DNA of 64,000 nucleotides from Nostoc sp. TH1S01 (GTDB taxonomy: Bacteria; Cyanobacteriota; Cyanobacteriia; Cyanobacteriales; Nostocaceae). The notes beneath the pieces were generated by a model. It did no database searches. It saw only the letters and a list, made by a program, of their open reading frames with translations, and had not been told where the DNA came from. The DNA lies in NCBI GenBank assembly GCA_018993265.1, contig JAGKSW010000032.1:1-64000 (forward strand), read 5' to 3'. The translations under genes and the position numbers were made by a program. Shown in pieces: positions 3 to 43,914 of this stretch. Each line of letters begins with the position of its first letter. The stretch's first letter is position 1.

Positions 3-167
3 AGCCTCAACAACCTAGCATTACTCTACAAATCCCAAGGCAGATACCCCGAAGCCGAACCCCTTTACATCCAAGCTTTAGATATTTGTGAGCGACGGTT
101 AGGCGCAAATCATCACGATACTGTGACTACGAGGAATAATTTAGCATATTTGCGCGATTCTCTATAA
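3..167 (+). CDS. C-terminal end of a TPR-repeat protein (partial)
   Basis: An open frame runs in from the left edge and stops at TAA 165-167. Its 54 residues contain one tetratricopeptide unit of the kinesin-light-chain/NB-ARC-associated type (SLNNLALLYKSQGRYPEAE, then PLYIQALDICERRLG), followed by the start of the next helix (TVTTRNNLAYL) and a short tail. In filamentous cyanobacteria such tails usually end long NB-ARC/TPR or CHAT/TPR proteins, but that part lies outside the window. The repeat type is seen directly; the identity of the whole protein cannot be known from here. Confidence 0.75.
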   Translation, partial: SLNNLALLYKSQGRYPEAEPLYIQALDICERRLGANHHDTVTTRNNLAYLRDSL

Positions 168-205
168 ATCACAACAGTAATTTTGAGTCCCATATCATTT
201 TTTAT

Positions 206-246
206 CTCGCGCAAAGGCGCAAAGTCGCAAAGGAAGGCGCAAGGGC
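206..246. repeat. Short tandem repeat (GGCGCAAA type)
   Basis: A run of GCGCAAAGGCGCAAAGTCGC units follows the TPR gene. Closely similar runs occur at 27696-27726 and 39823-39849, so this is a dispersed intergenic repeat and not coding sequence. Confidence 0.7.
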
Positions 247-269
247 GTTGTGTTAAATGAGAATGTTCT

Positions 270-540
270 TGTTTCAAGTGAGAGTGTTCTTGTTTTGAAC
301 TCGGAGTTTTGTGTTCTGAACTCGGAGTTTTGTGTTCTGAACTCGGAGTTTTGTGTTCTGAAGTCGAAGTTTCGTGTTTGCAGGTGGAATGATGGTGTTG
401 TGAAGGCGAACGCTCGACTTTTTTACTCGAAGTCTCGTGTTCTGAAGTGGAATGATGGTGTTGTGAGGGCGATCGCTCCACCTTTTTACTCGAAGTTTCC
501 TGTTCTGAGGTGGAATGATGGTGTTGTACGGTCTACGCTC
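270..540. repeat. Tandem array with 21-bp and 63-bp periods
   Basis: GTTCTGAACTCGGAG-type units start at 292 (variant), 313, 334 and 355, exactly 21 bp apart. They run into longer units starting GTGGAATGATGG at 384, 447 and 510, exactly 63 bp (3 x 21) apart. Because both periods are multiples of 3, frames on both strands stay open and give repetitive low-complexity peptides on either strand. No ribosome binding site or known domain supports translation. A 30-bp block of the array (450-479) recurs at 1314-1343 with one mismatch. I read this as a noncoding repeat, though a repeat peptide cannot be excluded. Confidence 0.8.
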
Positions 541-31066: not shown

Positions 31067-32053
31067 ATGAGTGTGAGTAAAAAGGGCGTTTTGGGTGCTG
31101 GTGTTGCATTTGCAGCACTGACAGGTTTGGTTGTTGGTACTTTTGGGGCGATGCAGACAACTAATGCTAATGCTAACTCCATTCCTAATCAACAAGCGCC
31201 ACGCTTACTTGCCCAAGCTAGAAGACTAAGTAATTTAACAGTAATTTTTCCTAGTCGTTCTGACTCTACAGACTTGCAAAATAAAGCCAACGCTGTAGCC
31301 AGGTTTCTCTCTAACGAGTTAAAGATTCCCGTCAAAGCACAGATTGGTGATGATACTGCGGCGGTGGAAGCTTTAAGAGCAAATCGCGCTGATGTGGCTT
31401 TTCTTAGCAGCCGTCCGGCGTTGAAAGCTGAACAATTGGCAAATGCTAAGTTGTATCTAGCTGAAGTCCGTGACAATTACTCTGGTAGATACACCTATAA
31501 TTCAATATTTGTCGTTCCTAACAATAGCTCTTTGAAAACCAGAAATACGGCTCAAGCAACCCTAGGACAACTGCGGGGTAAGCGCATAGCCTTTACTTCC
31601 CCAACTTCTGGTTCAGGATTTGTTTTCCCGGTGAGTGAGTTAGTCAAACAGGGATTTGTCCCCAACCGCGATCGCCTGGATAATTTCTTCGGTCAAGTTG
31701 CTTACGGTGGTAATTACAGCAAAGCGTTGCAAGCAGTAGTGCGCGGTCAAGCTGATGTAGCGGTTGTTTCTGAGTATGCTATGTTCTCACCGTACATCAC
31801 GCCTCAAGAAAAAAGCCAATTACGCGTACTTTACAAAATTTCCGGTGTTCCTGCCCACGGTATCGCCATTGATGATGATGTACCAGTACAAGACAGAGAA
31901 AGATTAATCAACGCTCTCCTGAAGTTAAATCAATCACAAAATAATCAGCTATTACGCAACTTATACAACTCCACCGAATTGGTCAGAGTTGATCATAATC
32001 GTCACCTGTCACCAATTCGCACTGCTCTTTCCCGGATTGGGATTGCGCCGTAG
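31067..32053 (+). CDS. phnD: PhnD-type phosphonate/phosphite-binding protein
   Basis: 328 residues. A signal peptide (KKGVLGAGVAFAALTGLVVGTFGAM) precedes a type II periplasmic binding fold of the PhnD/PtxB/AioX group: LTVIFPSRSDSTDLQNKANA, then ALRANRADVAFLS, LRGKRIAFTSPTSGSGFVFP and a GQADVAVVSEYAM segment. It would capture a phosphorus oxyanion (phosphonate, phosphite or similar) for the transporter encoded downstream. Good ribosome site CGGAGAG. No C-P lyase or phosphite dehydrogenase gene is in the window, so the ligand is open. Confidence 0.85.
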   Translation: MSVSKKGVLGAGVAFAALTGLVVGTFGAMQTTNANANSIPNQQAPRLLAQARRLSNLTVIFPSRSDSTDLQNKANAVARFLSNELKIPVKAQIGDDTAAVEALRANRADVAFLSSRPALKAEQLANAKLYLAEVRDNYSGRYTYNSIFVVPNNSSLKTRNTAQATLGQLRGKRIAFTSPTSGSGFVFPVSELVKQGFVPNRDRLDNFFGQVAYGGNYSKALQAVVRGQADVAVVSEYAMFSPYITPQEKSQLRVLYKISGVPAHGIAIDDDVPVQDRERLINALLKLNQSQNNQLLRNLYNSTELVRVDHNRHLSPIRTALSRIGIAP

Positions 32054-32289: not shown

Positions 32290-33015
32290 ATGAATGATTG
32301 TGTAATTGAATGTCATAACTTAGAGACAGCATACACTGCGTCTTTAAATCGTCCTATCCTGAATGGGATTAGTTGTCGGATAAAACAGGGTGAGTTTGTT
32401 GTTCTGTTAGGACTTAATGGTGCAGGGAAATCGACACTATTGCGATCGCTGATCGGATTAGTCCCCTTCACCAAGGGAGAAATTCAAATCAACGGTGTAA
32501 CAATGACACCCCGCACCCTACCGCAAATTCGCCGCAATGTTGGAATGATATTTCAGGGAGGCGGATTAATTCGCCAGTTGTCAGCAATTGATAATGTGTT
32601 GTGTGGCAGACTTGGTGTCAGGACAACTTGGCAGACATTATTGGGCTTTCCAGGGCGCGATCGCAACTTAGCAATGGATTTACTTGCACAGTTGGGTTTA
32701 AAAGAACAGGCTGATCAAAAAACCAGCCAACTCAGTGGTGGACAGCAACAACGAGTGGCGATCGCCCGCGCATTAATTCAATCACCGCAAATTCTCTTAG
32801 CTGATGAACCAATTACAGGTTTGGATGTTGTCGCCTGTCAACAGGTAATGGAAACTTTATCAGAATTGCACCAGCAAGGTATGACGATTGTGACAGTTCT
32901 GCACGATTTAGGTATAGCTGCAAAATACGGTCAACGTGCGATCATCTTAGATGCTGGACGGATTGTTTACGACGGACTTTGTGAAAACTTGCAAGCCCAA
33001 TTTGTCAAATGTTAA
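32290..33015 (+). CDS. phnC: PhnC-type ABC transporter ATP-binding protein
   Basis: 241 residues of an ABC ATPase: Walker A LNGAGKST, Q loop MIFQGGG, signature LSGGQQQRVAIARAL, Walker B ILLADEP and switch His in VLHDLG. The pattern RRNVGMIFQ..LI.QLS..DNVL.GRLG is characteristic of phosphonate importers. It energises uptake through PhnE. The start overlaps nothing upstream; its stop overlaps the phnE start by 7 bp. Confidence 0.9.
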   Translation: MNDCVIECHNLETAYTASLNRPILNGISCRIKQGEFVVLLGLNGAGKSTLLRSLIGLVPFTKGEIQINGVTMTPRTLPQIRRNVGMIFQGGGLIRQLSAIDNVLCGRLGVRTTWQTLLGFPGRDRNLAMDLLAQLGLKEQADQKTSQLSGGQQQRVAIARALIQSPQILLADEPITGLDVVACQQVMETLSELHQQGMTIVTVLHDLGIAAKYGQRAIILDAGRIVYDGLCENLQAQFVKC

Positions 33016-33794
33016 ATTCAAAAACTCTTCGCCGTTATCCTTGGATCAGTCCCCTACTCATCCTTTTAATTGTTGTTACAGTCTATGCTTGGGCTTTGCG
33101 AGGCATCAAAGTCGATTTTGAATTAGTAATATCTAGCTGGCCTTACATCACTGATTTTGTTTCTCGCTTATTTCCCCCTGATCTGACAGTTATCGATATA
33201 GCAATTAAGGCACTCATAGAAACAGTGCAGATGTCTTTGTGGGGAACTAGTATAGGTGCAATTTTATCTTTACCCATTGCTGTAGCGAGTGCTAGTAATG
33301 TTGCGCCTCGTTGGTTGCAATGGTTAGCCAACTTACTACAAAACGCAGTGCGTTCCGTCCCTTCCATCATTTTGGGGTTAATTTTCGTCGCCGCCACTGG
33401 CTTAGGCGCACCCGCCGGAACCTTAGCTTTAGCAATTTACACCATTGGCTATTTAGCAAAGTTCTATCAACAAGCCATTGAAGCGGTGAATGCCAAATCT
33501 TTAGAATCTTTGCAAGTGATGGGTGCATCGAGATTTCAGATTGTGCAGTACGGCATTCTACCTCAAGTCTTACCCTTGGGTTTAGGATATACCTTATGGA
33601 TGTTTGAATATAATATCCGCGCTGCTTCAGTGTTGGGTGTAGTGGGTGCAGGTGGAATTGGCTTTCAACTCAAGAGTTACATTGATGGTTTTGAGTACAA
33701 CAAAGCTACAACTATGATGCTAGTGCTGTTAGTAGTTGTGACTGTAATTGATGCGTTCAGTAGTAAATTACGCCAGCGACTAGATTCACTCTAA
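33009..33794 (+). CDS. phnE: PhnE-type ABC transporter permease
   Basis: 261 residues with about six transmembrane helices. The permease EAA loop is EAVNAKSLESLQVMGASRFQ, followed by ILPQVLPLGLGYTLWMFEYNIRA, which is typical of PhnE. The ATG lies inside the phnC 3' end (ATGTTAA), so translation is coupled. Together with phnD and phnC it forms a complete three-gene importer. Confidence 0.9.
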   Translation: MLNSKTLRRYPWISPLLILLIVVTVYAWALRGIKVDFELVISSWPYITDFVSRLFPPDLTVIDIAIKALIETVQMSLWGTSIGAILSLPIAVASASNVAPRWLQWLANLLQNAVRSVPSIILGLIFVAATGLGAPAGTLALAIYTIGYLAKFYQQAIEAVNAKSLESLQVMGASRFQIVQYGILPQVLPLGLGYTLWMFEYNIRAASVLGVVGAGGIGFQLKSYIDGFEYNKATTMMLVLLVVVTVIDAFSSKLRQRLDSL

Positions 33795-35298: not shown

Positions 35299-35937
35299 TT
35301 ACTTGTTAGGTTGAGGAGTTAACCGCAGATAGGGTTTGACTACTTCATAACCTTTGGGGAATTTTTCTTTCAATACTTCGGGGTCTTTGAGGGAGGGGAC
35401 GATAACAACCTTATCACCATCTTTCCAGTCTGCTGGGGTAGCAACACTGTAGTTATCAGTCAGTTGCAGTGAATCAATGACTCGCAAAATTTCGTCAAAG
35501 TTGCGTCCGGTGCTGGGGGGGTAGGTGAAAGAAAGACGCAGTTTTTTGTTGGGGTCAATTACAAACACGGAACGCACTGTGACTGCTGCGTTAGCGTTGG
35601 GGTGAATCATGTCGTAAAGGTCGGAAACCTTACGATCTGCGTCTGCCAAAATTGGATAGTTGAGTGAGGTATTTTGTGTTTCTTCGATGTCGCCTACCCA
35701 ACCGTTGTGAGATTCTACATCATCAACGCTGAGTGCGATCGCTTTCACATTGCGCTTGTCAAATTCTGGCTTGAGTTTTGCAACTGTACCTAGTTCAGTA
35801 GTGCAAACAGGTGTAAAGTCAGCAGGGTGAGAAAACAGCACCACCCAGCTGTCACCTGCCCATTCGTAAAAATTTATGTCGCCGTGTGTAGAGGCTTGTG
35901 TAAAGTTGGGTACTGTATCACCAAGATGGAGAGTCAT
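35299..35937 (-). CDS. 1-Cys peroxiredoxin (Prx6 type)
   Basis: 212 residues. Peroxidatic Cys45 is in PADFTPVCTTELG, and the Prx6-specific C-terminal dimer domain follows (TPADWKDGDKVVIVPSL, then FPKGYEVVKPYLRLTPQP). No second resolving cysteine is seen, so it is the 1-Cys class, which reduces H2O2 and organic hydroperoxides in the cytosol with an external reductant. Start ATG 35937 with GGGAATC upstream. Confidence 0.94.
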   Translation of the reverse strand: MTLHLGDTVPNFTQASTHGDINFYEWAGDSWVVLFSHPADFTPVCTTELGTVAKLKPEFDKRNVKAIALSVDDVESHNGWVGDIEETQNTSLNYPILADADRKVSDLYDMIHPNANAAVTVRSVFVIDPNKKLRLSFTYPPSTGRNFDEILRVIDSLQLTDNYSVATPADWKDGDKVVIVPSLKDPEVLKEKFPKGYEVVKPYLRLTPQPNK

Positions 35938-36230: not shown

Positions 36231-37943
36231 ATGATTTTTCAAAGGTCGCGGTTCGCCATTCGTCTTGTAGTAATCTCTGCTTTAGTGTTAATGACGGGGT
36301 GTAACACTAACTCGACTTCAGATAATAATTTTACAGGTTTAACAGTTAAATTGCTGGTTGGTAGTGCTTTGGGCGACTTTTGCAACCAAGCGGCGAAAAA
36401 TTTTAATGCTACCCAACCAAAGCTAGACAATGGTACAGCTTTTCAAGTGAAATGCGAATCTTTGGGTAGTGGTGATGTCGTCACTGAGGTAGTAGCTTTA
36501 GCAGATCAATTGCAAAAGGGGACAGTACAAGCTGACGCACCAGATTTTCCGACGATTATTTCTCTGGATGGAGATATATATCACAGTCAGTTAATTTACC
36601 GGATGAATCAACTTTTTCCAGGGAAAAATTACATTCCAGAGATCACAGAGTCGCCACTTATTGCTAACACCCCAATGATATTTATGGCGCAAGCTGATAT
36701 AGCAAGTGGTTTGCGGAAAGTTGCAGATCCTTATAAAGCTTTGGTGACAGCTAAAACTCACCGCGATATCGACCCAGCATCACCACCGTTGACAGTTCAT
36801 TATGTACATTCTGCCCCAACTCGTTCAAATTCTGGGTTGCAAACATTGGTAGCCCAATACGCCAGCGTATCAGGGAAACGTCCTGAAGATATAACTGTGG
36901 CGGATGTGCAGAAGTTTCAACCACAAATTCAGCAAATCCAAAGCAAAATTACTCGTTATGGGGTTTCGACTAATTCTCTCGCCCAAGCAATGGTGAAGAA
37001 TGGGCCGTTTTGGGCTTCAGTTGGTTCAGTGTATGAATCGAGTGTAATTGTGGCTAATTCGGGTTTAGCAACAGGACAGCAGCGTTATCAGGCAGTTTAT
37101 CCCAAAGCCACATTTACTTCTAATATGCGGGCGATTATCCCGAATGCACCTTGGGTAAGCGCGGATGAAAAGGCAGCTGCAGAGAAGTTTATCACCTATT
37201 GGCGATCGCCTGAAACTCAAAAAATTGCCCCCGATTTAGGTTTACGTCCCGGAACCCCAGGAGTTGCTTTAGGTGCTAAGTTTAGTCCCGAATTTGGTGT
37301 GGAAGCCCAAGCCAAGTATGATTCCTTGCGTCCACCAAAGCCGGAAGTTGTTGATGCAATGCTGAAATCATGGCAGGAATCAGCAAAAAAACCATCGTTG
37401 GTAGTGGTTGTTGTTGATTCTTCGGGTTCAATGTCGGGTGATAAATTACCAGCCGTACAAAATACTTTACAAAATTACATTAAGAATTTGGGGCCGAAAG
37501 AACAAATTGCTTTGATTGATTTTGACTCAGTAATTCGTCCACCTGTATTAGTAGATGGTACACCCCAAGGACGCGATCGCGGTTGGCAATTTATCAATGG
37601 ACTTCAGGCTGATGGTGGGACAAAATTATACGATGCAGCTTTAGAGGCGAGAAATTGGCTACAAAAAAATCTGCGGAAAGATGCAATTAACGCTGTGTTG
37701 ATATTAACTGATGGTGAAGATGCGGGTTCAAAAATTAAGTTGAATGAGTTGGAAGAAGAATTGAAAAAAAGCGGTTTTGCAACTGACCAAAGAATTGGCT
37801 TTTTTACGATTGGCTATGGTAAAGAAGGTGAATTTCAACCAGATGTTTTAAAAGAAATTGCGGAGTTAAATGGAGGGTATTATTCTCAAGGCAATACTGA
37901 GACAATTTTGCAGTTAATGTCAAATTTACAGGTAGAATTTTAA
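36231..37943 (+). CDS. Lipoprotein with substrate-binding and von Willebrand A domains
   Basis: 570 residues. A lipobox (SALVLMTGC) makes it a lipoprotein. Residues about 35-375 form a bacterial extracellular solute-binding domain with PTRSNSG at 196-202. Residues about 385-570 are a vWA domain with an intact MIDAS: DSSGS (396-400), the GGTKLYDA threonine and LTDGEDAG. No ABC permease or ATPase is near, so it is not an ordinary importer component; the vWA domain points to metal-dependent protein contacts at the membrane surface. It is the first gene of a tight three-gene operon (8-bp gaps) with ribosome site GGGAG. Confidence 0.88.
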   Translation: MIFQRSRFAIRLVVISALVLMTGCNTNSTSDNNFTGLTVKLLVGSALGDFCNQAAKNFNATQPKLDNGTAFQVKCESLGSGDVVTEVVALADQLQKGTVQADAPDFPTIISLDGDIYHSQLIYRMNQLFPGKNYIPEITESPLIANTPMIFMAQADIASGLRKVADPYKALVTAKTHRDIDPASPPLTVHYVHSAPTRSNSGLQTLVAQYASVSGKRPEDITVADVQKFQPQIQQIQSKITRYGVSTNSLAQAMVKNGPFWASVGSVYESSVIVANSGLATGQQRYQAVYPKATFTSNMRAIIPNAPWVSADEKAAAEKFITYWRSPETQKIAPDLGLRPGTPGVALGAKFSPEFGVEAQAKYDSLRPPKPEVVDAMLKSWQESAKKPSLVVVVVDSSGSMSGDKLPAVQNTLQNYIKNLGPKEQIALIDFDSVIRPPVLVDGTPQGRDRGWQFINGLQADGGTKLYDAALEARNWLQKNLRKDAINAVLILTDGEDAGSKIKLNELEEELKKSGFATDQRIGFFTIGYGKEGEFQPDVLKEIAELNGGYYSQGNTETILQLMSNLQVEF

Positions 37944-37951
37944 ACTAGTTT

Positions 37952-38674
37952 ATGAAAATTGTTAATCCTCTTTATTATCCATTAGCAGTGTTAGCTGGGG
38001 GAATTTCTCTATTTTTGGGAGTGCGTTTATTACAATTGCCCAGCTTAGTTATGTTACCTGTAGCTTCGGGGATAGCTCTAATTAGCGCGAGTTTTATCAA
38101 ATATCGTGAACCCCAAGCTTTTGAATTAGCAAATCCAGAATTAGAAAGAGAAGTTAACGCCGTTAAGCTGGCAGCTTTAGGATTAGTAAATCAATCAGAA
38201 AATTTGCGTTTGGAGGCGAAAAAATTACTCAATGATTCATTTCAAATAGAACTTTTAACAGCATTGGAAATAAATGGCGATCGCATTTCCACATTACCCA
38301 ATAAAATCGACACATTAGCCTGGAACTTATTCAGCAATAATTCAATTCTTTCAGTCAGTGCTTTACAGCAGCAATTAGCAGAAGTCCAAAAAAAATTGAG
38401 TACGAGTTCTGGTGTCGCCAAAGAACATCTCAATCAACTAGCTGCAAGCCTGAAACGCAATCTTAAATTAGCCCAAGATGGTGAGGACACGCGGTTAGCC
38501 AGAATTATCAATATTTCCACATTAATTCAAGATTGTACAGGCATATTGCAACAATTACAAACTAAATTGCGAAACTCAGATTTAAGTGATGCTCAACAAA
38601 TTCATGAGATGCAATTACTCAGTGATGAACTTACTAGCTTAGTAGAAAATATAGATTTATTAGTGCAGAAATAA
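37952..38674 (+). CDS. Membrane-anchored coiled-coil protein
   Basis: 240 residues. Two closely spaced N-terminal membrane helices (LAVLAGGISLFLGVRLL and LVMLPVASGIALISASFI) are followed by a long helical, mostly coiled-coil domain of about 190 residues (ELEREVNAVKLAALGLVNQ, LQQQLAEVQKKLSTSS, ELTSLVENIDLLVQK). No catalytic motif. The topology resembles XpaC-like proteins that accompany TelA, but I see no definite match. Encoded between two substrate-binding-type proteins with 8-bp spacers, it likely bridges them at the cytoplasmic membrane. Confidence 0.75.
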   Translation: MKIVNPLYYPLAVLAGGISLFLGVRLLQLPSLVMLPVASGIALISASFIKYREPQAFELANPELEREVNAVKLAALGLVNQSENLRLEAKKLLNDSFQIELLTALEINGDRISTLPNKIDTLAWNLFSNNSILSVSALQQQLAEVQKKLSTSSGVAKEHLNQLAASLKRNLKLAQDGEDTRLARIINISTLIQDCTGILQQLQTKLRNSDLSDAQQIHEMQLLSDELTSLVENIDLLVQK

Positions 38675-38682
38675 CTAAAATT

Positions 38683-39813
38683 ATGCCACCAGGATTAAAA
38701 GCTTCTAAAACAAAATCAAAATCTGCAAAAGTTATGACTTCAGTTGCAATTATGATTGCAGCTTTGGGTTTGACTTATATTCCGCTTCCTGGTTCAAATA
38801 AAACTATAGTTATTGTTAGTGGTACAGAACTACAAGAACCACTGCAAGAATTAGAAGCGAAATTTGAGCAAGTAAATCCTAATATTAAACTAGATTTAAA
38901 ATTTCAAGGTTCTCAAGAAATTGTTAACAATTATCTTGACCAGAAAAATGATTTTAAACCAACCATCTTAATTCCTGCTAATGGAGAAATTTTAACAGAA
39001 TTAAGCGATCGCCTCCGCACTACTAGCCAAACCGAACCCTTTTACGACACTCCCCGACCACTAGCAAAAACTCTATTAGTCGGTATTGCTTGGCCAGAAC
39101 GGGGTAAAGTCCTCTTTCCCAATGGACGCTTTCAATGGTCAAAACTAGAACAAGCAATGCAAGCAAGTAACTGGGGAAAAGTTGGCGGTTCAAGTAATTG
39201 GGGAAGTTTCGATTTTGTCACTACCGACCCCACGCGGTCTAATAGTGGTCAGTTGACTTTGGAATTGTGGACGCAATCAAAATTAGGCGGAACTATCAAC
39301 GCCGATAGTTTCAACAGTTCATCTATACAACCGCTATTTAGTTTAATCAAAAAATCAGTTTATCAGCCACCTCGTTCTACAGATATTCTCTTACAAGAAT
39401 TTATTGTCAGAGGCCCTAACGATGCCGATGTTGCCACTGTCTATGAAAGTATAGCTTTATATCGTTGGCAGCAATCAGCCGCCAGTAAAGGCAAACCTTA
39501 CCAAGTTTATTATTTAGACCCATCCATTGAAACTACTGCCACCGCCGCCATTGTCCGACGAGACGTAGATGAGGGTACAGTAAAAGCCGCCAAACAATTT
39601 TTAGACTTTCTCACCCAACCAGAACAACAAGCAGTATTTGTCAAATACGGTTTCCGTCCAGTGAATAATGGGGTTGATTTAAAAACTGTACCTAATAGCC
39701 CCTGGAATCAAAATATTCCCGGTGCAGAAATTAAACCGAGTGTAAACATTCTTCCACCACCTGATAGCAAAACAATCACAGAAATTCAACGTCAATGGGA
39801 AAGGGCGAATTAA
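38683..39813 (+). CDS. Membrane-anchored substrate-binding-domain protein
   Basis: 376 residues. One N-terminal membrane helix (VAIMIAALGLTYIPL) without a lipobox is followed by a solute-binding fold (TIVIVSGTELQEPLQELEAK, LLVGIAWPERGK, ATVYESIALY, LDFLTQPEQQAVFVKYGFRP). It shares the exact motif PTRSNSG (183-189) with the first gene of the operon, so the two are probably paralogous binding domains of the SBP_bac_11 type. No transporter components are nearby. Function unknown; a surface sensing or assembly role with the vWA protein is inferred. Confidence 0.82.
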   Translation: MPPGLKASKTKSKSAKVMTSVAIMIAALGLTYIPLPGSNKTIVIVSGTELQEPLQELEAKFEQVNPNIKLDLKFQGSQEIVNNYLDQKNDFKPTILIPANGEILTELSDRLRTTSQTEPFYDTPRPLAKTLLVGIAWPERGKVLFPNGRFQWSKLEQAMQASNWGKVGGSSNWGSFDFVTTDPTRSNSGQLTLELWTQSKLGGTINADSFNSSSIQPLFSLIKKSVYQPPRSTDILLQEFIVRGPNDADVATVYESIALYRWQQSAASKGKPYQVYYLDPSIETTATAAIVRRDVDEGTVKAAKQFLDFLTQPEQQAVFVKYGFRPVNNGVDLKTVPNSPWNQNIPGAEIKPSVNILPPPDSKTITEIQRQWERAN

Positions 39814-39822
39814 GAAATTTTT

Positions 39823-39897
39823 CACGCCAAGGCGCAAAGGCGCAAAGAGGAGTGCAAGCTTATTCCTCTGCGTCCTCTGTGCCTCTGTGGTTCGTTA
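39823..39897. repeat. Paired dispersed repeats (GGCGCAAA and CCTCTGCG types)
   Basis: CGCCAAGGCGCAAAGGCGCAAAG at 39823-39849 and CCTCTGCGTCCTCTGTG plus CCTCTGTGGTTCG at 39865-39897 fill the space between two convergent genes. Both types recur elsewhere in the window. Confidence 0.75.
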
Positions 39898-41067
39898 CTT
39901 AATTAGAATTTGCTGATAAGCTTGAATCATTTGGCGAGCGATCGCATCCCAACTAAAATGTTCTAAAGCATATTTTTGAGCATTTATTCCCCGACGTTGA
40001 CATTCTTGGGGACTTTGTAACGCCTGTTGCAATAACTCAAACAACGATGAAACCTCAGTTTTACCCACCCATCCCGACTGACTATCGCTGACTTGCTGCC
40101 AAATATGCACCTGGTCAGAAATCACTACAGGTATCCCTGCAACCATCGCCTCAGCAACCGCAATACCAAAGTTTTCGTAATAAGAAGGTAAAACAAATAA
40201 ATCAGCCGCTTGTAATAAGCCTGCTTTCAATTCACCACTCACAAAGCCTGTAATGGTAGTATGCGATCGCAATGGTGAATTCTCAATTTGAGATTTAATG
40301 TTTTGTTCATAGTCTGGGTCTTGAGGATTTGTCCCTGCTAGAACAAAATGGAATTTACAATCATTTGCCAACAGCTTTTCTAAAGCCGGAATTAACAAAT
40401 TCAAGCCTTTTTTTGGGTCAATTCGCGACATAAACAAAACTAAAGGCACATCTTCCGATATACCTAGCTGACCGCGTACTGCACTTGATGAAGTTTTTTG
40501 CGTCGGTTTTACACCCAAAGGAATTACTAAATCTTTGGTATTGACTCCAAATCTTTCTGATATTTTTGCTTCTTGTTCGCTAGTAAAATGAATTGCTGCT
40601 GCACCTGCTAAATTGTTTCTTTCTAACAGTTCTACATACAACTTTTTTAATTGTTTTTTCTTTTGTAAATCAGCCGGATCAAGAGTACCTAAAGGGCGCA
40701 AGATATAAGGTAATTTTTGTTGACGGCAGACCATCGCCGCCGCACTACTAATAGGTGAAAATAAAGCATGAATATGGGCTAAATCAAATTCAACCGCATG
40801 ATTTTTCAGCCAATTGAGTAAATCTAGCGAAAATTTATAGCGGCGAAATGGCGCACAGCGAAAGTAAATTATTTCATAACCATCTTGTTGAATTGGGTGA
40901 TTTAAAGGTACATCAAGAGGTTGTTGACCAGTATCACCATTACTATCAGTTGTGAGAATAGTAACTTTTACGCCTTCTTTTGCTAAAGCTGGAGCTAACC
41001 CTAATACCATTTGGCTAGGGCCACCATAAATTAAAGAAATAGATGGAACAATTTGTAGTATTCGCAT
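39895..41067 (-). CDS. Glycosyltransferase family 4
   Basis: 390 residues, GT-B fold. The N-terminus has the donor-independent loop SISLIYGGPSQMVLGLAPALAKEG, and the C-terminal half has the start of the Rossmann domain LVLFMSRIDPKKGLNLLI and the EX7E motif in SYYENFGIAVAEAMVAG. It transfers a sugar from a nucleotide donor to a glycan lipid intermediate at the inner face of the membrane. It follows the GT2 gene on the same strand with only a 79-bp gap containing a hairpin repeat. In context it could correspond to one of the Hps glycosyltransferases (HpsO/HpsP type), which is inference. Confidence 0.87.
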   Translation of the reverse strand: MRILQIVPSISLIYGGPSQMVLGLAPALAKEGVKVTILTTDSNGDTGQQPLDVPLNHPIQQDGYEIIYFRCAPFRRYKFSLDLLNWLKNHAVEFDLAHIHALFSPISSAAAMVCRQQKLPYILRPLGTLDPADLQKKKQLKKLYVELLERNNLAGAAAIHFTSEQEAKISERFGVNTKDLVIPLGVKPTQKTSSSAVRGQLGISEDVPLVLFMSRIDPKKGLNLLIPALEKLLANDCKFHFVLAGTNPQDPDYEQNIKSQIENSPLRSHTTITGFVSGELKAGLLQAADLFVLPSYYENFGIAVAEAMVAGIPVVISDQVHIWQQVSDSQSGWVGKTEVSSLFELLQQALQSPQECQRRGINAQKYALEHFSWDAIARQMIQAYQQILIK

Positions 41068-41093
41068 TTTAATTTAAGATTATCGAGAGAATC

Positions 41094-41126
41094 AGATCCC
41101 CGACTTCTTTAAGAAGTCGGGGATCT
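41094..41126. repeat. 33-bp palindrome (hairpin), copy 2
   Basis: AGATCCCCGACTTCTT and AAGAAGTCGGGGATCT form a near-perfect palindrome between the two glycosyltransferase genes. It differs from the one at 5198-5230 at two stem pairs, both compensated, and at one loop base. Confidence 0.85.
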
Positions 41127-41146
41127 CAAGACCGCAACAGCAATTT

Positions 41147-42169
41147 TCAATTAGCAGACATAGAAGCTTCTTTATTAACAACTAACATTTGGGATTGTTT
41201 ATCTAACATGCTATAACTCTGTCCATTATTCCAGAGTGATTGAATCACAGTAGACAAAGCATTCATAAAGCCTAATAAGTAGAACATAGCACGAGACACA
41301 ACTGCCACAAAAGAACCGCTTTTGTTACAAGGTGGATGTCCCAAAACCTGACAATCAAATAAACGAGCGTATAGCTGTAAAGCTTCAATAAAAGTCAGAT
41401 TCTTCAACGCCATCAAAAAATTATTGTGATAGAAAGTGAGTTGATATTTGAGCGATCGCGTACTGATATCATGACAACCACCCGTCTCCTCACCTAAATG
41501 CACTAAATGTGCTTCTGGGTCGTACCAAATCTTATATCCTGTCTGCCTAATTCGCAAACAAAAATCAGATTCTTCCCGTACTGCACTCCCGCGAAACCTC
41601 TCATCAAACCTCAGTCCGTACTTACTAAAAATATCGCGGCGAAATGACATATTACAACCCCTTGCTGTTAACACTTGTTGGGGTTTAATTGTATGTACTA
41701 AATCAATATAATACCAAGCAATACCAGGGTTCATCGCTTGAGGAGGAAGATATTCAATCTGTAATTTTCCCCCAGACTCACCCAACTTCATTCTGTCAAA
41801 TACTCTTCCAGCCACAGCCCCAATTTCTGGATTTTGCAAATAATTTTTCGCATGAGCCATTAAAAACCCAGGCGTTAATTTCACATCATCATCAATAAAT
41901 AAAATTATTTCTCCAGATGAGCGCCGCACACCATAATTCCGCGCCCCAGGTAAACTAGCCCAATTCAAACGAAACCATTGAATTTTACCTAAAGTAGTAA
42001 CTTCTTCTAAATAAGCTTGCACTTCTGGTTGGTGTTTTGGCGATTGATCTACTACCAAAACTTCAAAATTAGGATAGTCTTGATTCAGAACATCCACAAT
42101 ACTATCCTTTAGTGCTTCCTCTCGTCCGTAGGTTGGTATGATTACGGAAATTAAAGGCAAATCATTCAT
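41147..42169 (-). CDS. Glycosyltransferase family 2
   Basis: 340 residues with a GT-A fold: SVIIPTYGREEALKDSI, VVDQS, ARNYGVRRSSGEIILFIDDDVKL containing the DXD-type metal site, and a later REESDFCLRIRQTG (acceptor-side ED-like motif). It is a metal-dependent inverting transferase. A C-terminal hydrophobic stretch (AMFYLLGFMNALSTVI) may tether it to the membrane. Neighbours suggest extracellular polysaccharide assembly; it could be the HpsN-type transferase, but I cannot confirm this. Confidence 0.87.
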   Translation of the reverse strand: MNDLPLISVIIPTYGREEALKDSIVDVLNQDYPNFEVLVVDQSPKHQPEVQAYLEEVTTLGKIQWFRLNWASLPGARNYGVRRSSGEIILFIDDDVKLTPGFLMAHAKNYLQNPEIGAVAGRVFDRMKLGESGGKLQIEYLPPQAMNPGIAWYYIDLVHTIKPQQVLTARGCNMSFRRDIFSKYGLRFDERFRGSAVREESDFCLRIRQTGYKIWYDPEAHLVHLGEETGGCHDISTRSLKYQLTFYHNNFLMALKNLTFIEALQLYARLFDCQVLGHPPCNKSGSFVAVVSRAMFYLLGFMNALSTVIQSLWNNGQSYSMLDKQSQMLVVNKEASMSAN

Positions 42170-42255
42170 GTGATTTTATGCTCAAATAAATTGGTTGTTT
42201 TGATAGTAGAGTTACCAGGGATGATATTTGTTACTTTCCAGAGAAACTTACTCAA

Positions 42256-43914
42256 TTAAAACTTGATTTGTAGACGTTTTTTCTGGGTTGAGTTTTCAGG
42301 CTCGGCATCTTCCTTTTCTTGTTTATCTAGTGTGGGTAATTTGAATAGTATTCCCGCAACAAACCAGTAATACACAGCCACCGGATCAACATCTAAAGGA
42401 TAGTAGTAGGTGTTATAACTAATAAACAATATAAACACCCACAAAGCTGCTCCGTAACTGCGGAAATTACGGTTTTTTATGGAACGATAAGTTTTGAACC
42501 CTGTAAATGTCAGGGTACTAACTAAAGCGAAAAAACCTAACACACCAAAAATCCCAACCTCGTATAAAACTTTGGGATAGTATGTCTCTACTAACTTAGT
42601 TTGACCCAATGCACGCGCCGAGTTAGTCGCTCGACCTAAGCCGCTTCCTATGGGGGTGTCTACATTTTTCCAGTTTTCCGCAAATTGCTGGATAATAAAA
42701 TCTTGGGGTGGTGAAGCATTCCAGCGTACCAAAAAGCTATCTAGTCGCTCTTGAACCACTACAGGGTTCGTCACCACTGCAATTCCCAAAATCATCACTA
42801 GTCCTATCCCAATCGGTAAAAACCGCTTCAGGTTGGCAATTTGACCAGTGAGTAATAGCAGCATCACAAAGCAAGTTGGTACTAAAGCTAAGGCAATTCT
42901 CTGTCCAGAAATTACTGCATTAACAAAGATTAATGCCAAAGAACCTAAACTTGTTAACCGCCACAAAATTGATGGGTCGGAAAAGCCTGTAGCAAAGGCA
43001 AAAAAGGTACTAGAAATTAAAAACCATGCCCACTGCCAAGGCGCAACAAATGTTCCTGGGAGGCGAATAATTCCTTGACTGGGGCTATAAACTAAAGCTC
43101 CACCAAAATAACATCGAGCATCAAGTGTGGCTTTAAATAAAGCCGCACCTTCTAAATTTCGTGTACCTTCACAAATGCCAACTACTAATAGTATGTATTG
43201 CAGAAATCCCAGTCCACAGCAAATGATGATGAGAACAATTTGTAAGCGCGTTATCTTCAGAAAATCTTTCTTATCACGAATGAGATAATAAGCGCAGGTA
43301 ATTAAAGGAACGTAACCTAAAAATACTTTTAAACCTAAAATTCCTAAGCCTATAGGTACTTCCTTGACTGGTGTTTCTAAAAGTCCTACAGGTGGTGGGT
43401 TAAGTTGCTGTCCACCATTGATAAATACCAACGTTAATAAACTTGAACCCAATACAAAATAAAAAGGAATTGTAATCTCTTTGGGGATAATGAAGGGTAA
43501 CTTTTGTTTGCGGCAAATCTGCCAAAGCGCGATCGCTACTGGAATGTAAAATGAATCTTTAGCTAATTGCAGGATTGGACTGTTACCAATGTAATAAGTA
43601 ATTGTTCCGCCAAAAGGGACATATATAATAAAGGCAATTAAAGCCTGACGGGGGTATTTATAAGAAAAAGCCATCACAAGAACACCCAAGACAGCGGGTA
43701 ATGCTGCCTTAATTCCGGCGAATAAAAATAGCAAAAAACCTAAAAATAACGCGCCCGATAAGGATTTAGTCAGCAAATCCATGAACTCTTGGCGAGCTTT
43801 CTTTGCTTGACGCTTTTGGGCTAACCTTTCTTGGAGGCTAAGAGTAGGTGCATCCTTTTGAGGCTGCTTTTTTGAGTTTTTTGATTTCTGGGATTTTGAT
43901 TTTACTTTTGCCAT
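42256..43914 (-). CDS. hpsL: HpsL-like polysaccharide biosynthesis membrane protein
   Basis: 552 residues. A highly basic N-terminus (KVKSKSQKSKNSKKQPQK) precedes about 11-12 transmembrane helices and a large periplasmic loop (VVQERLDSFLVRWNASPPQD to GSGLGRATNSAR). This matches the O-antigen ligase/polymerase superfamily. The basic head, QERLAQKRQAKKARQEF and the overall size fit what I recall of HpsL from the Nostoc hormogonium polysaccharide genes, which is needed for gliding filaments. It would polymerise or ligate the exported glycan. Two glycosyltransferases follow on the same strand. Confidence 0.6.
   Translation of the reverse strand: MAKVKSKSQKSKNSKKQPQKDAPTLSLQERLAQKRQAKKARQEFMDLLTKSLSGALFLGFLLFLFAGIKAALPAVLGVLVMAFSYKYPRQALIAFIIYVPFGGTITYYIGNSPILQLAKDSFYIPVAIALWQICRKQKLPFIIPKEITIPFYFVLGSSLLTLVFINGGQQLNPPPVGLLETPVKEVPIGLGILGLKVFLGYVPLITCAYYLIRDKKDFLKITRLQIVLIIICCGLGFLQYILLVVGICEGTRNLEGAALFKATLDARCYFGGALVYSPSQGIIRLPGTFVAPWQWAWFLISSTFFAFATGFSDPSILWRLTSLGSLALIFVNAVISGQRIALALVPTCFVMLLLLTGQIANLKRFLPIGIGLVMILGIAVVTNPVVVQERLDSFLVRWNASPPQDFIIQQFAENWKNVDTPIGSGLGRATNSARALGQTKLVETYYPKVLYEVGIFGVLGFFALVSTLTFTGFKTYRSIKNRNFRSYGAALWVFILFISYNTYYYPLDVDPVAVYYWFVAGILFKLPTLDKQEKEDAEPENSTQKKRLQIKF

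Follow-up and report, generated by a model that had tools for sequence, protein, structure and literature searches.

Why would a cyanobacterium encode two solute-binding proteins (SBPs) side by side in an operon that includes no transporter? The question is raised by three consecutive genes, here called g1, g2 and g3, of Nostoc sp. TH1S01 (contig JAGKSW010000032.1), which lie in a stretch of 64,000 nucleotides that we analysed whole and refer to as the window. The genes share the plus strand and are separated by gaps of 8 bp each, an arrangement described in an earlier sequence-only reading of this DNA and borne out by the coordinates of the open reading frames (ORFs; Table 1). We propose, and give the proposal an even chance, that the triad forms a transporter-less complex of three proteins in the cell envelope, a ligand sensor or scaffold that would signal across the membrane. 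The proposal draws on the domains of the three proteins, on their co-occurrence and joint loss across Cyanobacteria, and on the lack of a conserved transporter gene beside them.

Table 1. The triad, its domains and neighbouring genes in the window (nucleotide positions are those of the window; residues are numbered within each protein).
Feature	Position	Orientation	Description	Basis
g1	36231-37943	+	570 aa	ORF call
g2	37952-38674	+	240 aa	ORF call
g3	38683-39813	+	376 aa	ORF call
g1, solute-binding domain	residues about 36-352		type II solute-binding domain	Pfam
g1, vWA domain	C-terminal; motif at residues 396-400		vWA domain with MIDAS motif DSSGS	Pfam and sequence
g2, hairpin and helical domain	N-terminal, then helical domain		membrane hairpin with NPLxYP start, followed by helical domain	hydropathy and AlphaFold2
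g3, solute-binding domain	on N-terminal membrane anchor		paralog of the g1 solute-binding domain	Pfam and hydropathy
PhnD-like SBP	31067-32053		phosphonate-type operon
PhnC-like ATPase	32290-33015		phosphonate-type operon
PhnE-like permease	33009-33794		phosphonate-type operon	PhnE model, 281.9 bits (cut-off 216.7)
Peroxiredoxin	35299-35937	divergent	AhpC/TSA family, 1-Cys C-terminal domain	profile match
Glycosyltransferase block	39895-43914	convergent	two glycosyltransferases and a polysaccharide polymerase/ligase, all putative	ORFs assigned by eye

Domains of the three proteins

The product of g1 is an SBP fused to a von Willebrand factor A (vWA) domain with a metal ion-dependent adhesion site (MIDAS), as the sequence-only reading had stated. 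Pfam matches are SBP_bac_8 (E 7.7e-26, residues 53-352) and, from residue 391, VWA_3 (E 9.5e-14) and VWA_2 (E 2.7e-13). The claim that g1 is a lipoprotein is confirmed by a lipobox cysteine, C24, kept in 35 of 35 aligned sequences; across these the only three cysteines of the protein (C24, C51 and C75) are invariant, and C51 and C75 perhaps form a disulfide. Scanning 84,980 species, each represented by one genome, with a g1 alignment gave 140 relatives, of which the best 80 were analysed. The MIDAS pattern DxSxS and the motif GxTxLYD are kept in all 80, and LTDGxD in 79. Foldseek searches with the AlphaFold2 model (mean predicted local distance difference test score, pLDDT, 87.9) placed the SBP part near sulfate-binding protein 1sbp (E 7e-11), ferric-binding protein 4elo (E 8e-11) and molybdate-type SBPs, and the vWA part near the inter-alpha-inhibitor heavy chains and alpha2-delta.

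The third protein is likewise an SBP, with a single hydrophobic segment at its N-terminus (residues 17-35) and a match to SBP_bac_11 (E 1e-20), which agrees with its earlier description as membrane-anchored. The heptapeptide PTRSNSG is indeed found in both proteins (g1 196-202, g3 183-189). We did not accept this shared motif by itself as proof of homology and relied on profile comparison instead. The two SBP domains are 29% identical over about 200 amino acids (E 5.9e-9 and 3.1e-9), and their profiles align with an hhalign probability of 98.7%; judged by these comparisons the domains are homologous, in keeping with the paralogy suggested before.

Two hydrophobic segments are also present in g2, as had been read from its sequence, but the long coiled coil ascribed to it did not hold. 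The AlphaFold2 model (mean pLDDT 81.7) has helices at residues 10-26 and 31-51, forming a hairpin, followed by seven more. No match over a cut-off was found for g2 in Pfam or NCBIfam, nor for its model in the PDB at E <= 0.001. The best fold matches, IncA (E 0.049) and yeast eisosome proteins (E about 0.2), were rejected as not significant; IncA likewise combines a membrane hairpin with helices. A role in anti-phage defence was set aside as well; PADLOC gave nothing beyond a weak LmuB match for g2 (E 0.0017).

Co-occurrence and joint loss across Cyanobacteria

We searched an evenly drawn set of 146 cyanobacterial genomes, using residues 1-390 of g1 as its query and cut-offs of E <= 1e-15 for g1 and g3 and E <= 0.001 for g2. 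The first and third genes occur in an identical set of 11 genomes, and g2 in those 11 and, weakly, in G053 (8e-5). In a second, larger sample of 386 cyanobacterial genomes, which overlaps the first and for which the g2 cut-off was E <= 1e-10, g1 was found in 30 genomes, g2 in 31 and g3 in 30. At least one of the three is present in 34 genomes and the complete set in 28; a failure to co-occur, which the sequence-only reading had named as counting against it, was not observed. Fisher tests, uncorrected for kinship, gave 6e-37 (g1/g2) and 2e-41 (g1/g3), and by genus g1 occurs in 19 of 142. Judged by these counts, co-occurrence of the triad exceeds chance.

Incomplete sets were found in six genomes, and five of these hold fragments or decayed copies. 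Three (G159, G195 and G280) have g2 remnants with 4-6 stops, G332 has a g3 remnant with 11 stops, and G317 has a partial g1 with a stop and a partial g3; the sixth, G372, has g1 only. The decayed and partial copies hint that the entire set was lost recently in these lineages. Among the 28 complete sets, G249 has g1 and g3 each in two pieces, g1 with a stop. By coordinates the order g1-g2-g3 is collinear in 23 of the 28, and g3 is divergent in G187, G316 and G326. G085 and G253, which belong to the same genus, carry the three genes widely separated along a single contig, yet all are present without stops. Retention of scattered genes points to a shared function, a stronger argument than inheritance as an operon. 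On this evidence the triad behaves as a unit that is mostly kept or lost together.

The best 80 relatives of g1 are all cyanobacterial by title and include Nostoc, Calothrix, Okeania, Trichodesmium, Microcystis, Prochloron, Acaryochloris, Pseudanabaena and a metagenome-assembled genome (MAG) of the Gloeobacterales. The order g1-g2-g3 on one strand is found in 67 of these loci, counting L084 and L091, where two genes share one ORF. The others have g3 without g2 (4/80), g2 without g3 (6/80) or neither (3/80); four loci (L078, L087, L090 and L098) offer less than 2.4 kb of DNA 3' of g1. Each of the four genomes without g2 at its locus encodes a copy elsewhere, and overall g2 was present in 9 of 12 genomes checked and g3 in 6 of 9, with g3 on a different contig from g1 in Prochloron (G154) and M5B4 (G155). 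We did not count the joint g1-g2 ORF of L084 as a working fusion, since its vWA domain breaks off near residue 490, as a deletion would leave it. At two loci without g2 and g3, g1-like proteins (L072:3192-4910 and L081:6956-8686) have the MIDAS sequence DSSASM, and the protein encoded next, of 279 aa, has hydrophobic segments but could not be placed clearly in a family; the g1-like proteins perhaps represent a derived use of g1.

Membrane topology and a possible mode of action

In the Gloeobacterales MAG (L091), g2 and g3 are joined in a single 605-residue ORF in which neither ATG nor GTG separates the two parts, a fusion that fits a complex of the encoded proteins. An alignment of the fusion with the single genes was not used, as its g2 rows have 11-17% identity to the fused protein. 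If the SBP of the fusion is outside, the stretch before its anchor, which is the helical domain of g2, would be inside. This is suggestive of a cytoplasmic helical domain and fits a two-helix hairpin with its N-terminus inside. The charges agree weakly with this: averaged over 40 g2 sequences, lysine and arginine together number 0.3 for the loop of the hairpin, 1.0 for the N-terminus and 1.6 for the stretch that follows helix two.

The triad might therefore work as follows. Lipid-anchored g1 and membrane-anchored g3 would display two paralogous SBP domains outside the cytoplasm, and binding of a ligand would close one or both of them. The vWA domain of g1 could then dock, by way of its metal-bound MIDAS, on an acidic residue of a partner, either g3 or another envelope component. 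The g3 anchor and the hairpin of g2 would relay the resulting state to the helical domain of g2 at the cytoplasmic face, which may act as an adaptor or a sub-membrane scaffold, possibly in envelope homeostasis.

Relation to operons that carry TelA

A similar run of genes occurs in another genome of the phylum, G034, which encodes in order an SBP-vWA protein (538 aa), XpaC (206 aa), an anchored SBP-like protein (354 aa) carrying DPNKSNSG, and TelA (371 aa); the first three are ordered like g1-g2-g3. A fifth gene after TelA (L125:336-1034) encodes 232 aa with N-terminal hydrophobic stretches. In G041, the neighbour of TelA is a protein of 271 aa that has a hydrophobic stretch at its N-terminus (L126:7194-9246), and no SBP-vWA gene was recognised alongside.

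The G034 SBP-vWA protein matched nine plasmid records, seven of which were examined; the remaining two are Variovorax records of like identity. TelA is present at the loci of Nonomuraea (unannotated, with ORFs called here), Sphaerotilus and one Variovorax, together with an SBP-like protein, an SBP-vWA protein and a small protein with one or more N-terminal hydrophobic segments. It is absent at those of Deinococcus, Miltoncostaea, Streptomyces and a Pseudanabaena plasmid. Deinococcus (L142) has an SBP-vWA, an SBP-like and a small membrane protein; Miltoncostaea (L138) and Streptomyces (L140) pair an SBP-vWA protein with a small one bearing one or more hydrophobic segments at its N-terminus, with no second SBP listed alongside. 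Thiodictyon has an SBP-vWA protein, an SBP and a 224-aa protein. The records name the SBP-vWA protein 'substrate-binding and VWA domain-containing protein' and TelA 'toxic anion resistance protein'.

In hhalign comparisons, g1 aligns to its counterparts at 99.9-100% and g3 at 94.9-97.4%, with 99.9% and 97.4% for those of the TelA-linked operons; none of five SBP-like proteins from TelA-type loci has a Pfam match, and their nature as SBPs rests on the 97.4% alignment to g3. With the TelA-linked operons the triad shares an SBP-vWA protein with MIDAS and a second, anchored SBP-like protein, and it differs in having neither XpaC or a homologous small partner nor TelA. Among the 146 genomes, TelA (PF05816) was found over cut-off in two and at E <= 0.001 in eight, and XpaC (PF10112) over cut-off in one; the 11 triad genomes have no match to either. 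Membership of g2 in the XpaC family was rejected, since none of 40 g2 sequences matched PF10112 at E <= 0.01 and the hhalign value is 6.8%; with no detectable homology, the link between g2 and XpaC is architectural only. The small partner of Miltoncostaea aligns to g2 at 0.5%, and the small partners in L141-L144 are likewise unlinked to XpaC (0.7%). We place the triad as a cyanobacterial branch, free of TelA, within a loose kind of operon made of SBP-vWA, SBP and helical membrane protein genes.

The best match to g1 that we found outside Cyanobacteria is that of Miltoncostaea (29.5% identity over 518 aligned positions, E 5e-47); the TelA-linked SBP-vWA proteins are further away (E 4e-11 to 5e-20). 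That the nearest relative is TelA-free at its locus speaks against a simple loss of TelA, and TelA may have joined a core that consists of SBP-vWA, SBP and membrane protein. The triad would work much as the other operons of this kind do, some of which carry TelA in other bacteria. In PMC12791056, Listeria lmo1966-lmo1967, which resemble XpaC and TelA, are discussed in the response to bacteriocins; susceptibility of an lmo1967 mutant is cited there as four-fold higher to nisin and two-fold higher to tellurite, and the Bacillus subtilis homologue YaaN as upregulated by poly-L-lysine. PMC7824862 counts TelA among predicted components of sub-membrane structures of Ter systems. From these phenotypes and this prediction comes our proposal of an envelope-sensing complex.

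A comparison can also be made with the FtsZ-like 1/vWA operons (Makarova and Koonin, 2010; PMC2875224), which likewise have membrane-linked vWA proteins with intact MIDAS in uncharacterised bacterial operons. An adjacent FtsZ-like 1 gene marks such operons; around the triad, in a survey that used no FtsZ-like profile, no further family is common to most loci.

Alternative roles

Both SBPs could instead serve an ATP-binding cassette (ABC) importer encoded elsewhere, either the Phn-type system upstream or one for sulfate, iron or molybdate, with the vWA domain and g2 as accessories. The SBP domains of g1 and g3 do resemble SBPs of sulfate/iron/molybdate-type importers, and a Phn-type operon is close by in the window; it ends 2.4 kb upstream of g1, beyond three ORFs on the other strand, so the earlier statement that no ABC permease or ATPase is nearby was wrong. 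This operon has its own SBP, however, and it appears not to be conserved next to the triad in relatives. When up to 7 kb on each side of the 80 loci were searched with single PhnC and PhnE sequences, the PhnE query, which reaches only fairly close permeases, detected a permease in none, and ABC ATPases were detected in seven, at distances of 2.3 to 6.1 kb, none within 2 kb of the triad. Homologues that normally adjoin ABC genes, another outcome named as adverse to a transporter-less complex, were thus not seen. An SBP is assigned to an ABC importer when its cognate permease and ATPase lie in the operon or are conserved alongside, and neither was found here; a role as importer parts was not supported. 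Orphan importer SBPs are similar to g1 and g3 in fold and differ from them in membrane anchoring, vWA fusion and lack of a permease neighbour. Importer SBPs need neither a membrane anchor nor a vWA domain, and g3 has the one and g1 the other. We regard import as unlikely.

Resistance to metals or toxic oxyanions, with the SBPs capturing the ion outside and the complex protecting the envelope, is equally improbable in our view. It would suit the TelA association of some relatives, the likeness of the SBPs to oxyanion- and ferric-binding proteins, and the divergent peroxiredoxin, a relative of which adjoins g1 in 18 of 80 loci (including L072 and L081). Against it stand the lack of a TelA match in the triad genomes and the fact that no metal-resistance gene recurs beside the triad in the 80 loci; the TelA name itself is based on modest phenotypes. 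No better a chance can be given to adhesion or to assembly of exopolysaccharide or cell wall, in which the vWA domain would bind a surface polymer and the SBPs its building blocks. Here the conserved MIDAS is in favour, as are the glycosyltransferase genes that lie by the triad, as a block or in part, in 17 of 80 loci; the block is common to five of the 11 genomes of the first draw, one of another order, and the peroxiredoxin to four. Most loci with either neighbour are what we take, from record titles, to be Nostocales-type, and most other relatives lack the block at the triad, so it may be inherited synteny; moreover, the SBP folds are closest to binders of small ions.

Weighing the complex

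The surface complex without a transporter that the sequence-only reading suggested came through both comparisons, while a part in sensing, adhesion or assembly is something we infer. Several observations weigh against the sensor or scaffold that we favour. The gene set is missing from the bulk of the cyanobacterial genomes (352 of 386), and some loci carry g1 without g2 and g3; no g2 or g3 match was obtained in G149 and G150, whose titles both name Mastigocoleus, or in G151, a MAG of 4.4 Mb, in assemblies that may be incomplete. The topology of g2 draws on hydropathy, a weak charge bias and the fusion in one MAG, and is suggestive: aspartate plus glutamate after helix two average 1.75 in the 40 sequences, against 1.6 for lysine plus arginine, and the L091 fusion retains one TTG where the anchor begins. 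No homology was detected between g2 and XpaC or the other small partners (hhalign 0.1-6.8%), and with the closest outside relative found for g1 TelA-free at its locus, the TelA comparison says little about function.

A more specific form of the sensor reading, which we hold tentatively and think somewhat less probable than its alternatives taken together, is that the triad is an old, TelA-free cyanobacterial receptor, built from importer parts and devoid of a transporter, that reports an external ligand through the hairpin to a cytoplasmic helical adaptor. Such a receptor would parallel, by analogy only, the alpha2-delta subunit of calcium channels, with its ligand pocket and vWA MIDAS. If the sensor or scaffold reading is true, this patchy gene set, found from Gloeobacterales to Nostoc, represents an unstudied means of environment sensing or envelope protection in Cyanobacteria. 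Being TelA-free, it would allow the SBP and vWA components of the little-understood TelA operons to be tested by themselves in culturable strains, and it cautions against annotating such SBPs as importer components.

Other observations

Our literature search, by titles and the opening lines of abstracts, found no treatment of the triad, with most subscription papers out of reach, so an earlier description is possible; the phrase 'substrate-binding and VWA' is absent from the open papers searched for it. Scans for promoters (12 against 10.4 expected) and terminators (2 against 3.9) were at chance level. In 12 of 80 loci a small protein that matches no Pfam family and has two hydrophobic segments is encoded near the triad, and beyond the triad no family is common to more than five of the 11 genomes or 18 of the 80 loci.

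Two further plasmid loci are of interest. In Pseudanabaena sp. ABRG5-3 (L145:5530-12328), tandem SBP-vWA-like proteins of 594 and 600 aa are flanked by membrane proteins and possibly constitute a second SBP-vWA system of Cyanobacteria. Plasmid 2 of Variovorax sp. SRS16 has, a few kb beyond its TelA/SBP-vWA operon, genes with Wadjet (JetA) and SbcC/MukB-like annotations (L144:11496-15449).

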